Assembly: GCF_000316685.1 (NCBI RefSeq)
Contig: NC_019680.1
Location: 931,501 to 995,500, forward strand
DNA from: Synechococcus sp. PCC 6312
GTDB taxonomy: Bacteria > Cyanobacteriota > Cyanobacteriia > Thermosynechococcales > Thermosynechococcaceae
Direction: 5' to 3'
DNA: 64,000 nucleotides
The stretch's first letter is position 1. Every line of letters starts with the position of its first letter. The position numbers and the translations under genes are program-made. Under the pieces are notes generated by a model. The model did not search any database. It was not told the origin of the DNA and worked only from the letters and a program-made list of their open reading frames with translations. Positions 3,962 to 9,803 of the stretch are shown one piece after another.

Positions 3962-5752
3962 ATGCGAACCCATTATTGTGCTGATTTACGTTTAAGCCAT
4001 GTTGATAAAACCGTGACCCTCTTTGGTTGGGTAGATCGGCGGCGAGATCATGGGGGAGTTATTTTTCTAGATTTACGGGATCGGACTGGCCTAGTCCAAA
4101 TTGTCAGTGACCCCCAACGTACCCCAGAGTCTTACCCCCAGGCCGATAAACTCCGCAGTGAATATGTCGTCAAAATTGTTGGGCGGGTGAGTCAACGGCC
4201 GGCTGATTCTTTGAATCCAAAACTACCCACTGGGGAGATTGAAATTTATGCTGAAACGATTGAACTCCTCAACCCCGTCCGCAAACAACTCCCCTTTCAA
4301 GTGTCCACCGCTGAACATGAATCAGTCCGAGAAGAATTACGGCTGCGGTATCGCTATTTAGATTTGCGCCGAGAACGGATGGCCCAAAACCTGCAATTGC
4401 GGCACCAAGTCGTCAAAGCCATCCGCCGTTATCTCGAAGATCAAGAACAGTTTTTAGAAGTTGAAACCCCTTTACTCACGCGCTCTACACCAGAAGGAGC
4501 CAGAGATTATCTTGTCCCCAGCCGCGTTAATCCCGGTGAATGGTTTGCCTTGCCCCAGTCGCCCCAGTTATTTAAGCAGTTGCTAATGGTGTCCGGCTGT
4601 GACCGCTATTATCAAATTGCCCGTTGCTTTCGGGATGAAGATCTCCGGGCTGACCGGCAACCAGAATTTACCCAGTTGGATATGGAAATGAGCTTCCTAG
4701 ATCAGGAAGAAATTCTAGCTTTGAATGAGGGCCTAGTCTGCCACATTTTTGAAACGATCAAAGGCCTTAAACTCCCCCGCCCCTTCCCCCGCCTAACCTA
4801 TGCTGAAGCCTTAGATCGCTATGGCACCGATAAACCCGACACTCGCTTTGGCCTGGAATTAGTGGATGTCTCGGATATCCTCAAAGATTCGGGATTTAAG
4901 GTCTTTTCCCAGGCCGTGGCCAGTGGTGGAATCGTCAAAATTCTCCCAATTCCTGGCGGAAATGAGCAAATCTCCAATGTTCGCATTAAGCCCGGTGGTG
5001 ATTTATTCCAAGAAGCCACAACTGCTGGAGCCAAAGGGTTAGCCTATATCCGGGTGCGCGAAAACGGGGACATTGACACCATTGGCGCGATTAAGGATAA
5101 CCTCAGTCCAGAGCAAAAAACAGAACTTCTCGCCCGGACTGGAGCCACATCGGGGCATTTACTCCTGTTTGGGGCAGGGGAAACCAATACCGTCAATAAA
5201 ACCCTGGATCGCTTACGGCAAGTGGTTGGCAAAGAATTTGGCCTGATAGATGCCAATCGCAACAATCTGCTGTGGGTTGTGGATTTCCCCATGTTTGAGT
5301 GGAACCCAACGGAAAAACGCCTAGAGGCTCTCCACCATCCCTTTACCGCTCCTCGCCCGGAAGATATTAAAGACCTCAAAACTGCGAAAGCCCAGGCCTA
5401 TGATTTAGTCTTGAATGGTTTTGAAATTGGCGGCGGTAGTGTGCGGATTTATCAGTCAGACTTACAAGAACAGGTCTTTGAAACCATCGGATTAACGCCC
5501 GAAGAAGCTCACGACAAATTTGGCTTTTTACTCGAAGCGTTTGAATATGGTACACCGCCTCATGGGGGAATTGCCTACGGATTGGATCGGTTAGTCATGC
5601 TCTTGGCAGGTGAAGACTCCATTCGGGATGCCATTGCCTTCCCCAAAACCCAACAGGCTCGGTGTTTACTCACGGGAGCACCTGCGAATGTTGCGAGTCA
5701 ACAACTCAAAGAACTCCATGTCACCTCAACCCATCGCCCAAAACCCAACTAG
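3962..5752 (+). CDS. aspS: Aspartyl-tRNA synthetase
   Basis: Charges tRNA-Asp with aspartate. The 596-residue protein has the bacterial class IIb layout: an N-terminal OB-fold anticodon-binding domain ([13 protein letters not shown]...F.DLRD), motif 1 around residue 150 with [14 protein letters not shown], motif 2 with [20 protein letters not shown], the bacterial GAD insertion (about 290-410), and motif 3 [13 protein letters not shown] near the end. The ATG at 3962 gives the usual cyanobacterial start MRTHYC; an in-frame TTG at 3929 would add eleven residues that do not look conserved. It ends 23 bases before a TGGCGTTACCCA inverted-repeat element. Confidence 0.96.
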
Positions 5753-5774
5753 AAGACGTTAAACCCTAGCTTAA

Positions 5775-5862
5775 TGGCGTTACCCAGACTGATCTGAACT
5801 CGCAAAGGGATTAAAAGTTCGTTCTAATCTGCTTTTTAGTCAGTGGTCGATGGGTAACGCCA
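5775..5862. repeat. Small inverted-repeat element with TGGCGTTACCCA ends (copy A)
   Basis: A perfect 12-base inverted repeat, TGGCGTTACCCA at 5775-5786 and its complement at 5851-5862, encloses 64 bases. It lies between convergent aspS and the DUF4278 gene. A related element with the same ends, one arm imperfect, is at 37025-37125. It could be a non-autonomous insertion or a structured 3' end; no transposase was seen in the window. Confidence 0.5.
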
Positions 5863-5885
5863 GAAATCGGGGAGGAAATTACCCC

Positions 5886-6080
5886 TTAGAAGCTGAAGGT
5901 AAGGTTGGGATGATATTCTGCACCCCGATAAACAATCCCTTGGTCTTTGGGGGCAGGAGGGTTGAGGGCCTGGTGGGGATGATATTCGGCTCCCCGGTAG
6001 TGGGCAACTGCGGCCGTTTCTTTAACATTCAGGTGGGCGGGATTGACCTCATAGGTTACGCCACGATAGGTCAGTTTCAT
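5886..6080 (-). CDS. DUF4278 small protein
   Basis: A 64-residue protein starting MKLTYRGVTYEVNP, the hallmark of the cyanobacterial DUF4278 family, whose function is unknown. The family motif YRG recurs: YRGAEYHP is present twice, at about residues 28 and 52, so the protein consists of three short related modules. The overlapping frame on the plus strand shows no recognisable family. It reads toward aspS, and the inverted-repeat element at 5775-5862 lies just past its stop. Confidence 0.75.
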   Translation of the reverse strand: MKLTYRGVTYEVNPAHLNVKETAAVAHYRGAEYHPHQALNPPAPKDQGIVYRGAEYHPNLTFSF

Positions 6081-6283
6081 AAAATCACCTCAAATTATGC
6101 TAGGGAAGATTATTAATCATGAGGCGCGTTCCTTCGGGATAATCCCTACTTCCGTCTTCCAAAAATGGAGATGAACGACTGTTTCTGTATCTAATTTAAC
6201 AGTTTGCCAATTATGAGAGCAACCTGCAGACAAAACTTAATATAATTTGCGAAGTATATATGCGCTACAGCCCTTACGATGAA

Positions 6284-6586
6284 CTACCATGCGGGCAGAG
6301 GGGCCTGGAAACACGATGGATGAAGCAATAACGTCTCATGGGGCGGCATTGATTCGGGCAATCCCTGATCAACTTTGAACCAATGCAACGGTACACAGCC
6401 TAATTCTGAGAGGGGCGGCACTTTAAGAGATTCGTGGTACGCATTAAAGAGGGAAGTCGGCTCATAATCCGTGTAGAAAGATTGCTTGCTTTGAGAGTAA
6501 CCAAACCCAAGAACAGACCAATAAGACGATTCAAAAAGCGATTTGCTCTTCATACCTTGTTGTGGCATCAATATCCTTAATTTCAC
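6284..6586 (-). CDS. Hypothetical protein in accessory DNA
   Basis: An open frame of 100 codons beginning with GTG. I recognise no family. The composition is rich in Ser, Pro, Leu and Tyr, without a signal peptide or membrane span. It overlaps the end of another decayed frame (6531-6725) in a different register, so at most one of the two was the original gene there. It may be a fragment or a chance open frame. Confidence 0.2.
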   Translation of the reverse strand: MKLRILMPQQGMKSKSLFESSYWSVLGFGYSQSKQSFYTDYEPTSLFNAYHESLKVPPLSELGCVPLHWFKVDQGLPESMPPHETLLLHPSCFQAPLPAW

Positions 6587-6725
6587 CGATAACTTTTTTT
6601 ATAGCTTTTCTGGATCACTGTTTTCTACATTTTTCTGTATGTGCCAGACTGGCAATATGATAAGCCTTGTTTCCAAGAAAGAATCTAATCGTTAACTTGA
6701 AAAGTCGCTCATCATTTACATCCAT
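6531..6725 (-). pseudogene. Decayed small gene downstream of the attC site
   Basis: The frame starts MDVNDERLFKLTIRFFLGNK and runs 36 codons to a TGA at 6615-6617. It then continues in the same register with coding-like composition (KVIGEIKDIDATTRYEEQ) to a TGA at 6531-6533. The +1 frame also looks coding for a few codons around the internal stop, so a nonsense mutation or a pair of frameshifts could explain it. It lies immediately past the attC right end (38 bases from it), as the next cassette gene would. I do not recognise the family, and no second attC follows it. Confidence 0.4.
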
Positions 6726-6762
6726 ATCTATCCAGAAAAATAAGCTTCCTCTGGCTTTGTTA

Positions 6763-6849
6763 ATCTAACGGTGTCCATCACCTGCCGCAAATAACCTAGA
6801 ACGCTAATAAATGAACTTTCAATGGTCAGGTGCATGGGCGTTGTTAGAC
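6763..6849 (-). other. Integron attC recombination site
   Basis: Read on the minus strand from 6849, the site begins GTCTAAC (R'') and ends GTTAGAT (R'). The two arms form an imperfect inverted repeat: AACGCCCATGCACCTGACC against the complement of GGCAGGTGATGGACACC. The pairing includes the CCAT and CACCTG blocks, with an unpaired spacer next to the R box and two extrahelical bases (a G and an A) on one arm. That arrangement is the hallmark of attC sites folded for IntI. The loop between the arms is about 37 bases. R'' is the exact complement of GTTAGAC at 7714-7708, the predicted left end of the same cassette. Confidence 0.75.
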
Positions 6850-6860
6850 CTCAACTGAAA

Positions 6861-7607
6861 TTAATAATCAAGCTCTATAGCAAGAATTTCCCGTGTTCCA
6901 GTGACAGGATTAATGCGATAAGTAGTTCTAGTTCTGTTTCTGATCTTCTCTTAAATCTGAGGTGTTGACTGGTTATATACAGTTACAACTTGAGGAGTAG
7001 ATGCATCCCTAAAATCTATGCCGAGAAACTGTTTTCGGATGCTGTGCGTTTCAGGCTTTTCAAGAATTGCAGTGATTCTCTCTAAGTGAAATAGCTCAAC
7101 AGATATAGCAAAAGTAATGATTCGTGAGATTAGTATGGAATTATTTGTGCTTGTAAACTTTTGATTCCAGCCTAGACTTAATGAGGGGGTATTCCTTGTT
7201 AGGGCCTACGATGATCAATCATTCTCACAAATCAAGACGGACTGCTATATATTCTCAGCAGATTTGTGGAGTTCTTGACGCTCTGCAAGCCGGAGTTCTT
7301 GATTAGTTACAAATACCAATGCATCTGTGTTGTTGGTATTTACACCCTCTAGATCACTGAGAAATTTGTCCTTTATTTCCTTACAATCTTTCTGACCTCT
7401 TGGAAAATAGACAGCCATAATCCACTGCTGACCATCTTTCTTGGAAAGAGCATCTTTTTTACCATCTTTACCGGCTAATGGATGGCTAGGATCCAAGCTT
7501 TCATAGCCTTCGTGGAGTAAGATTTGTGCTGCTAATCGCTCCGAGGAAGTCTGACCATTTATCCACTCACGTAGCCTGTGCCACGTCTCATCCCACCTAT
7601 TAGGCAT
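6861..7607 (-). pseudogene. Broken cassette gene, nuclease-like MPNRWD family protein
   Basis: The N-terminal 120 residues begin MPNRWDETWHRLREW and include SERLAAQILL, DPSHPL.GKDG.KDA, WIMAVYFPRGQ and FVTNQELRLAERQEL. I remember such sequences from restriction-endonuclease-like (PD-(D/E)XK-type) accessory proteins, but that is recollection, not a search. The frame stops at 7242-7244. Removing 7104-7244 restores it exactly, giving AENI-SVELFHLERITAILEK and onward. A further in-frame TAA at 6951-6953 is followed by 29 coding-like codons (RTTYRINPVTGTREILAIEL) to 6861. The gene is thus disrupted by a short insertion and probably by a nonsense codon. It is the only gene of the cassette ending at the attC 6763-6849. 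Confidence 0.7.
7104..7244. mobile_element. 141-bp MITE-like insertion in the cassette gene
   Basis: Both ends read inward as ATATAGCA. After a 7-8 base gap the inverted similarity continues (TGATTTGTGAGAAT versus TGATTCGTGAGATT), giving imperfect terminal inverted repeats of about 30 bases. Excising the 141 bases rejoins the host reading frame without loss. The target is an ATATA stretch, so a TA duplication typical of IS630/Tc1-mariner elements fits, although the exact edge is ambiguous by a few bases. It encodes no protein and would need a transposase elsewhere. Confidence 0.65.
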
Positions 7608-8108
7608 ATTAGCATATCACTTCAATCCCTATCTTCTTAAAATTTAACAAAATTTTGATGGTAGCTATTTTTACCTCAAGGTGGATTTCCTGTCACTAGA
7701 TTCAGAGGTCTAACTAGAGATTATACAGAAACTTTCCAGATACCAGATCCAATAAGTTTTTCATGAAAAAATCTTGTTATCTGACTATAAAATAAAGCCA
7801 TAGGTCAAGCATCCATGCGTGGAGCTTAAATGTTTGGAATCTTTGGATTCTTGAGTCCAGTCTTCAAGTTTAGAGCTAGAGCCTTGAAACTAAGATGCCC
7901 AGGCCAAGAAAAATTGGTTGGGAAACATTAATCGCAGCAAAACAGTCCCGCAACCTAGGCAGCCGAGTAACAGGGAAAACCGCCCACTGAGCCTGATCTT
8001 TTTTACCGGAGATGGTCATAATAAGTTAGATTCCTTGCTGATCAATGCCTTGGGTCGTTTTTGGCCTAATTTCCCAGCCCGTTTGATTCTTGTGTGCCGG
8101 AGTTCTCC
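7608..8108. other. Intergenic stretch: cassette leader, AT-rich DNA, 5' region of radical SAM gene
   Basis: Positions 7608-7713 are the predicted 5' leader of the cassette; its left boundary is the GTTAGAC read on the minus strand at 7714-7708. Positions 7715-7870 are AT-rich with no feature I can support. Positions 7900-7995 contain short blocks (GGGAA, then CCCGCAAC 22 bases later, then CCACTG) reminiscent of a cobalamin riboswitch, but the expected hairpin between the first two is missing. A 64-codon frame at 7918-8112 is not convincing. Confidence 0.4.
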
Positions 8109-9803
8109 ATGACTGTTACCACTGCCCCACAACCCAGTGTCAATGATGAATTACGCTTAGTTCCCGAAATGACTGGGGGGAGAGTACCCTTCACACCCAA
8201 AAACCATCGCCGGATTCTCTGTATCTTTCCCCGCTACAGTCGGTCGTTTGGTACCTTTCACTACGCCTATGGGTTGATGGGAACTGTGCGGGCCTTTATG
8301 CCACCCCAGGGAATTTTACTGGTTGCTGCCTATTTGCCAGAGTCCTGGGATGTCCGCCTGGTTGATGAGAATGTTCAAGCGGCAACTGATGCTGACTACG
8401 CCTGGGCTGATGTGGTGATTACCAGCGGGATGCACATTCAACGGCCACAAATTAATAATATTAACGCTATTGCCCACCGCCACGGAAAACTCACGTGCCT
8501 CGGTGGCCCCTCAGTTTCCGCTTGTCCTAGCTACTATCCGGATGTGGATATTTTGCATCTGGGCGAATTGGGGGATGCCACGGACAAAATGCTGACCTAC
8601 ATTGACGAATTTGGCTCACAGCGGCCGACTGAGCAGATGATTCTAGAAACCGCAGCCCGGCTGCCCCTGAACGAGTTTCCGACACCGGCCTATCATCTGG
8701 TGAATATGCGGAATTACTTTTTGGGTAGTGTTCAATTTTCCAGTGGTTGCCCGTTTCGCTGTGAATTTTGTGACATCCCCGAACTCTATGGCCGCAACCC
8801 GCGCCTAAAAACCCCCCAACAAATTACGGCTGAACTGGACAATATGCTGGCTTCCGGTAATCCAGGGGCTGTGTATTTTGTCGATGATAATTTCATTGGC
8901 AACCGCCGGGCGGTGACGGAATTACTCCCGCATTTGATCCAGTGGCAGAAAGATCGCGGCTATCCAATCCAATTTGCCTGTGAAGCGACCCTCAATATTG
9001 CCCAAAGTCCCAAGCTTTTGGAGATGATGCGAGAGGCCTATTTCTGTACGGTTTTCTGTGGGATTGAAACGCCGGAACCGGAAGCTCTGCGCGGGATTAA
9101 TAAAGACCAGAACCTGAGTATGCCCATCCTCCAGGCCATCCAAACCCTGAACAAATACGGCATGGAAGTGGTTTCAGGAATCATCATTGGCCTGGATACG
9201 GATACGCCCCAAACCGGAGAGCGGATTCTCGAGTTTATTCGCGCTTCCCAAATGCCGACCCTGACGATTAACCTGCTCCATGCCCTGCCCCGGACTCCTT
9301 TATGGCGGCGGTTAGAAGCAGAGGGACGGCTCAATGACGATGAATCGCGGGAATCTAATGTCGAGTTTCTCATGCCCTACGAAGACGTGGTGGAGATGTG
9401 GCGGCAGACGATTACCACAGCCTATGAGCCGGAATTTCTCTATGAGCGGTTTGCCTATCAAATGGAGCATACCTATCCGAATCGGATTGCGGTTCCGGCC
9501 AGCCCAGCCCGAGTCAATCGGGAAAATATTCTCAAGGGCTTACGGTTGATGAAAAATATCCTTTGGAATATTGGGATTACGGGCAGCTATCGAGATACTT
9601 TTTGGAAACTGGCCTGGCCTGCCTTGAAGCAGGGCGACATTGAAGGTTTGATTCATGTGGGCGTAGTCGGACATCACCTGATTCAATTTGCTCAAGATTG
9701 CGCCCGCGGCGATGAGGCGGCTTCGTTCTATGCCCAACGTCTCCGGGATGACCAGGCCAAGCAAGTCGAAAAAATGGCCCAGCCCGTTAGTTCCGTCTCT
9801 TAG
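8109..9803 (+). CDS. B12-binding radical SAM protein, HpnP-like (hopanoid C-2 methylase family)
   Basis: About 564 residues. The N-terminal half is a cobalamin-binding Rossmann domain (PPQGILLVAAYLPE.WDVRLVDEN, ADVVI.SGMHIQRPQIN, LGGPSVSACP, HLGELGD). The radical SAM core follows with the cluster motif CPFRCEFC near residue 220, then YFVDDNFIGNR, FCGIETPEPEAL and GIIIGLDTDTP, and a DUF4070-type C-terminus. The arrangement and wording match hopanoid C-2 methylase HpnP, which transfers a methyl group to diploptene A-ring carbon 2. Cyanobacteria also carry close paralogues of unknown role, and no other hopanoid gene is in view. The start is ATG 8109; a GTG at 8094 is in frame. Confidence 0.8.
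   Translation: MTVTTAPQPSVNDELRLVPEMTGGRVPFTPKNHRRILCIFPRYSRSFGTFHYAYGLMGTVRAFMPPQGILLVAAYLPESWDVRLVDENVQAATDADYAWADVVITSGMHIQRPQINNINAIAHRHGKLTCLGGPSVSACPSYYPDVDILHLGELGDATDKMLTYIDEFGSQRPTEQMILETAARLPLNEFPTPAYHLVNMRNYFLGSVQFSSGCPFRCEFCDIPELYGRNPRLKTPQQITAELDNMLASGNPGAVYFVDDNFIGNRRAVTELLPHLIQWQKDRGYPIQFACEATLNIAQSPKLLEMMREAYFCTVFCGIETPEPEALRGINKDQNLSMPILQAIQTLNKYGMEVVSGIIIGLDTDTPQTGERILEFIRASQMPTLTINLLHALPRTPLWRRLEAEGRLNDDESRESNVEFLMPYEDVVEMWRQTITTAYEPEFLYERFAYQMEHTYPNRIAVPASPARVNRENILKGLRLMKNILWNIGITGSYRDTFWKLAWPALKQGDIEGLIHVGVVGHHLIQFAQDCARGDEAASFYAQRLRDDQAKQVEKMAQPVSSVS

Follow-up and report, generated by a model that had tools for sequence, protein, structure and literature searches.

Integrons are described as a single platform in which one attI site lies beside the integrase gene intI, and extra cassettes elsewhere in a genome are ascribed to off-target insertion or to decay. 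In 2024, Loot et al. reportedly described in Nat Microbiol a class of attG insertions, by which cassettes are placed in the chromosome outside integrons. Single or clustered attC sites that occur without an integron-integrase are called SALINs and CALINs, respectively (PMC9024848, PMC12690207). Integrons have been found in cyanobacteria (PMC2426708, PMC8618304), a Cyanobacteria attC model exists (PMC8352920), and off-target insertion at attG sites is attributed to Loot et al. 2024 in a passage of PMC12444791. Integrons, CALINs and single attC sites, including those of cyanobacteria, are already known.

The window analysed here, a stretch of 64,000 nucleotides from Synechococcus sp. PCC 6312, carries at positions 6763-7714 (minus strand) an integron gene cassette of cyanobacterial type. 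A preliminary description had proposed such a cassette with no integrase in view, and this proposal is strongly supported by an attC model, by the cassette borders and by a search for intI; the boxes and coordinates that it gave are present in the sequence.

The attC site (6763-6849, minus strand, 87 nt) reads GAGGTCTAAC-AACGC-CCATGCACCTG ... CAGGTGATGG-ACACC-GTTAGAT. Its R'' box (GTCTAAC, 6849-6843) pairs with its R' box (GTTAGAT, 6769-6763), and an L'' box with an extrahelical G at 6833 pairs across the loop with L', which is the arrangement that defines the attC site of an integron cassette. Two extrahelical bases had been reported, of which the one in L'' was verified. The top-strand G (bottom-strand C), which occurs in 31 of 44 cyanobacterial sites, was considered as a new type of extrahelical base, and this claim was dropped on literature grounds: attC-dfrA1 has A-N7-8-C (PMC3053210), and the identity of the extrahelical base matters little (PMC2727003).

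A search for intI with TIGR02249 yielded matches over the cut-off in 22 of 386 cyanobacterial genomes, whose arrays supplied the training sites for a covariance model (R1) of 26 attC sites, all from cassette arrays near intI in other cyanobacteria, with the window left out. In the R1 alignment, 89.5% of cells are paired (28-38% in slid controls) and 14 pairs have changed on both sides. As a control, the model recovered six known class 1 integron attC sites with the right borders and strand. Applied to the present genome, it scores the window site at 68.8 bits (E 6.9e-16) on the minus strand, as had been claimed, versus only 16.4 bits on the opposite strand; this is the best score in the genome and far above background. 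The nearest intI-associated attC site (genome G295) is of equal length and identical at 67 of 87 bases. Moreover, when R and L boxes were required to pair under strict criteria, the window site was the sole match in the 64 kb, and 300 dinucleotide shuffles of the window, counted on both strands, produced two sites that equalled its stem score, neither of them with a 10-base start match. Folding of the bottom strand, which had been suggested as a check, gave -11.5 kcal/mol for the plus strand (the attC bottom strand) versus -9.5 kcal/mol for the minus strand, with neither value exceptional against shuffles (z of -1.9 and -1.4), and folding energy was dropped as uninformative proof of an attC site.

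At the left junction, the minus strand reads CTGTATAATCTCTAG/TTAGACCTC (a slash marks the crossover point), and the cassette body (6769-7713, minus strand), 945 bp in length, begins with TTAGAC and ends at the G of its own R' box. As the preliminary description held, the match between the cassette start, GTTAGACCTC at 7714-7705, and the R'' box (6849-6843 plus three bases) is exact, with 10 of 10 bases complementary. In 30 array cassettes, the start agrees with the cassette's own R'' box at 5.93 of 7 positions versus 4.93 in permuted pairs (maximum of 2000 permutations, 5.43), and the agreement extends beyond the box (2.33 versus 1.71 of 5). Because array cassettes obey this own-R'' rule, the 10-base match in the window represents the rule at its best. 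A like unit with like borders was found elsewhere in one case only, a cassette of Phormidesmis priestleyi (L011), to which DNA likeness begins at 7710, four bases inside the predicted border.

One gene had been thought to fill the cassette. The length of 945 bp stands, but the gene is interrupted, and its longest open reading frame is a 120-aa 5' part (7245-7607, minus strand) with a restriction-endonuclease-like (Mrr-like) domain that is 88% identical to the intact 200-aa homologue in L011. The interruption is a 142-bp MITE-like repeat (7106-7247) with ends TAGCA..TGCTA and a duplicated TA (7104-7105 and 7248-7249), which is missing from homologues L011 and L012. A second lesion is an in-frame TAA (6951-6953, minus strand) that aligns with CAA in L011. 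The repeat has nine matches in the genome including the window copy, the best other copy at 96%; members of this family measure about 134-142 bp and share the TAGCA..TGCTA ends (e.g. contig C1, 2319699-2319832). As a gene, the cassette is probably no longer functional.

The gene, of about 200 codons, is predicted to have encoded a protein with a restriction-nuclease fold. The 120-aa part matches PF04471 weakly, and the intact homologues likewise match Mrr_cat only weakly, at E 0.0009-0.005 (Pfam). An AlphaFold2 model of the protein (pLDDT 72.5, built from five sequences) resembles restriction-endonuclease-like domains, namely the N-terminal part of Avs4, the small subunit of R.BspD6I, and MspJI; the top-ranked structure matches are to RPB5, but with poor rmsd. 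Searches of the cassette protein with PADLOC and NCBIfam gave no match. The usual (E/Q)xK motif does not appear to be evident, and nuclease activity is therefore uncertain.

Homologues lacking attC boundaries had been named as evidence that would count against a cassette, and here the result is divided. The two closest homologues end in attC: the L011 site scores 41 bits with R1, and L012 (Nostocales HT-58-2) lies among four successive attC sites, its own being of another subtype. No attC was detected with R1 at the homologue loci of Limnothrix, Paraburkholderia and Calothrix (L013-L015). The attC scan of homologues covered loci L011-L015; further homologues reside on actinobacterial plasmids, and querying plasmids with the cassette at the DNA level returned nothing useful. 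This gene family is carried in cassettes sometimes, not always. The Phormidesmis cassette adjoins what appears, as read by eye, to be a long row of tRNA genes from about position 5710 of L011.

No intI gene was found in the genome (two contigs, 3.72 Mb), where the best TIGR02249 match reaches 22 bits against a cut-off of 265; the intI gene of a complete integron is absent, and with a single attC site and no integrase near, the window locus corresponds to a SALIN. The cassette had been called isolated, which holds at the locus, where R1 detects no second attC site within 5000-9000 even with filters off, but not genome-wide, where 13 attC sites are found at E<1e-3. Four of these form a cluster at 1906.5-1910.2 kb, which includes a fifth site of just 16.7 bits, and nine lie outside it, the window site included. 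Genes associated with cassettes elsewhere in the genome encode a RidA protein, SDR, SnoaL, DUF1993 and PIN proteins, among others. An attC candidate of 21.9 bits at 1513501 was taken as a false positive; it lies inside an 835-aa open reading frame, on the opposite strand. Separately, a Drt8-type defence reverse transcriptase (PADLOC E 2.8e-156) is encoded in a probable scattered cassette at about 723.5-725.1 kb of contig C1 (L112:2529-4070, minus strand), whose start matches at 9/10 positions and whose attC scores only 23.7 bits.

When the flanks of cassettes whose starts are fixed by R'' were lined up, a common left-flank sequence became visible. In the window it forms an attI-like core (7708-7755, minus strand), GAAAGTTTCTGTATAATCTCTAG/TTAGAC, whose half-sites lie inverted on either side of the G/TT crossover (7714/7713). 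A first PWM was built from the left flanks of four cassettes in this genome, that of the window cassette among them, and in 8 of 20 intI loci its best match (within 20 kb or less) is a site some 160-300 bp away from a divergently oriented intI, which is where attI is located in integrons; training partly on the window makes the choice of attI somewhat circular, and the position beside intI is the independent part of this result. For example, the match beside intI in genome G131 reads GAAAACTTCTGTATAATCCCTAG/TTAGGC, versus GAAAGTTTCTGTATAATCTCTAG/TTAGAC in the window. A model made from six intI-adjacent attI sites only returns the window junction (7737-7710, E 3.3e-5) as its top match in the 64 kb, and also picks the junctions of other scattered cassettes. 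Likewise, a sequence model without the window (R2) scores the junction at 20.2 bits (E 0.0016 genome-wide) and finds the intI-adjacent sites of genomes G384, G061, G229, G131, G220, G295 and G323. An attI site on the 5' side of the cassette, as in a complete integron, is recognized here by likeness of sequence only. The preliminary description had a single cassette inserted at a secondary site, which is not the best reading of a junction that matches the attI core beside intI elsewhere. An attI-like site of this kind also marks the start of most of the remaining scattered cassettes in the genome. A candidate promoter sequence at the window site is TGTATAAT. No empty insertion site could be demonstrated in same-family relatives, located via the neighbouring radical-SAM gene, where the upstream regions are not alignable.

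These attI-like sites belong to a family of longer leaders. Ten copies from this genome, aligned over about 85 bp with the attI site of G384, give the consensus ACTTGACATTCAGCCTAAACACCTTAATAGTTCTTTTAGACGGAAACTTTCTGTCTAATNCATAG/TTAGAC, and the leader copy tested contains a predicted sigma-70-like promoter (TTGACA-17-AATAGT). A search with R2 located 11 full leader copies in the genome and several partial ones, the window's among the latter. Most pairs of copies are homologous over 70-140 bp; in neighbouring copies, namely the pairs at 834.0/834.8, 1843.7/1845.3 and 2291.2/2292.6 kb, the homology reaches up to about 225 bp. Because homology runs to 70-225 bp, the leaders are copies by descent, rather than the outcome of similar target choice alone. 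An attC site in the right direction lies within about 2 kb behind 7 of the 11 full copies and behind the partial copy of the window; none was detected directly behind the other four. Cassettes at 1911.5 and possibly 725 kb begin at a second leader type.

Two further arrangements of leaders were observed. Four attI-like leaders point in the same direction within 16 kb (C1:829.6-845.1 kb), only one of them with a clear attC site behind it. At about 1843.7-1846 kb of C1 (L107/L211), two copies are homologous over about 225 bp, and each lies downstream of a gene whose C-terminus resembles, by eye, nucleases of the Rpn/DUF4351 type. This pair is a possible clue to how leaders are copied.

Similar sites are present in other cyanobacteria. 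Of 26 attC-positive genomes chosen for the search, 21 have R2 sites, versus 1 of 13 attC-negative genomes (Fisher p 2e-5). Among all 386 genomes, 36 have R2 sites and 30 of these also have attC (Fisher p about 1e-15), with per-genome match counts that are lower bounds (scoring was limited to the best candidates) and models trained on some of these genomes. Two genomes of the same family as the present one (G002 and G003) have attC sites and no R2 match. Several attI-like sites away from intI have a right-oriented attC downstream, in G113, G043, G229, G050, G295, G339, G051 and G220; in G220, four attC sites come after such a site, at a distance of 2.3 Mb from the intI gene of that genome. In one locus (L178; G113:C20, 1501-1656), an attC site abuts an attI-like site at a distance of about 7 bp, and another cassette follows. 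Genomes with attC (90 of 386) are four times commoner than those with intI over the cut-off (22 of 386), and 22 of the 386 sampled genomes have attI-like and attC sites and no intI over the cut-off. Many broken or partial intI genes are also present in this collection besides the 22 genomes over the cut-off, which suggests that integrase loss is frequent in cyanobacteria.

With a probability of roughly 0.75, the cassette was inserted by a now-absent IntI at one of about a dozen scattered, diverged attI leader copies. In the proposed sequence of events, the bottom strand of the cassette attC would have been folded by this integrase into a hairpin and joined by recombination to an attI-like site in double-stranded form, which leaves a cassette starting at G/TT and terminating in its own attC. 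The target would have been one of the dozen or so leader copies, most of which still hold one cassette, and the leaders may also have supplied a promoter. The integrase would then have been lost, and the cassette gene would have decayed since. We infer that the insertion was the work of IntI, that the leader copies functioned as attI sites, and that intI was lost rather than supplied by a transient plasmid. Weighing against this account are the partly circular choice of attI sites through the first PWM, the short stretch of leader (about 30-50 bp) kept in the window, the lack of an R2 match in G002 and G003, and the absence of a demonstrable empty site.

Three other accounts were weighed against insertion at a leader copy. 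That the attC is a chance palindrome beside an unrelated gene fits its just mildly unusual folding energy, but is refuted by the covariance score (E 7e-16), the shuffles, the start match and the homologous cassette with the same border. Ordinary off-target insertion would have used an arbitrary attG-type site that needs little beyond G-T-T, such that the likeness to attI reflects IntI preference and not descent. It is established that cassettes insert into attG sites across genomes (Loot et al. 2024, as cited in passages of PMC12690207 and PMC12444791), and the window copy retains only about 30-50 bp of leader, the full extent that its flank shares with the attI copies. However, the other scattered cassettes share a 70-225 bp leader that includes the promoter-like TTGACA outside the crossover core, which target choice does not explain, and the 4 of 11 full copies without a detected attC directly behind them likewise speak against this account, which we consider quite improbable.

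Somewhat less improbable, yet still unlikely, is that the locus is the remnant of a larger integron, a degraded CALIN in which intI, attI and neighbouring cassettes were deleted and one cassette was left. CALINs are thought to arise via intI loss or off-target insertion (PMC8618304), decayed intI pieces are common in cyanobacteria, and the present genome has its attC cluster at 1906.5-1910.2 kb. Against this, the genome holds no remnant of intI, the 5000-9000 interval holds no second attC, and the pattern is repeated at about ten separate places, which would require as many full integrons.

The leaders may have multiplied through duplication of segments, on a mobile carrier of unknown kind, or by way of attI-carrying circles made by the integrase, for which Delta-attI cassettes (PMC12901181) offer a comparison. 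A broader proposal, which we advance tentatively and at somewhat less than even odds, is a ‘distributed integron’, in which attI leaders carrying a promoter-like sequence multiplied and spread across the chromosomes of cyanobacteria, where each served for the landing and expression of one or a few cassettes, and IntI acted in trans and may later have been lost or have come from elsewhere. If attI leaders do spread in this manner, one integrase could fill many expressed sites, and scattered cassettes would be explained where genomes with attC outnumber those with intI. Scattered leaders would then also constitute a ready-made set of natural attI variants.

In a literature search, with most subscription papers outside its coverage, no earlier account of attI-like landing sites scattered in a genome without intI turned up; such sites thus appear undescribed as far as was found, which is not proof of novelty. 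Like SALINs and CALINs, the system comprises attC-ended cassettes without intI, but most of its scattered cassettes begin at attI-like leader copies, which fall outside that definition. It shares with the sedentary chromosomal integrons of cyanobacteria the attC type, a length of about 87 nt and the attI core found there beside a divergent intI, whereas here intI is absent and attI-like sites are many and scattered. The window cassette resembles the attG insertions described in the passages noted above in its chromosomal position outside an integron; attG sites, however, are said to diverge strongly from classical att sites (PMC12901181), and the window junction resembles attI. Finally, Delta-attI-type cassettes (PMC12901181) also place pieces of attI away from intI, but there attI follows the gene, in class 1 and 2 integrons, whereas here the leaders precede scattered cassettes.
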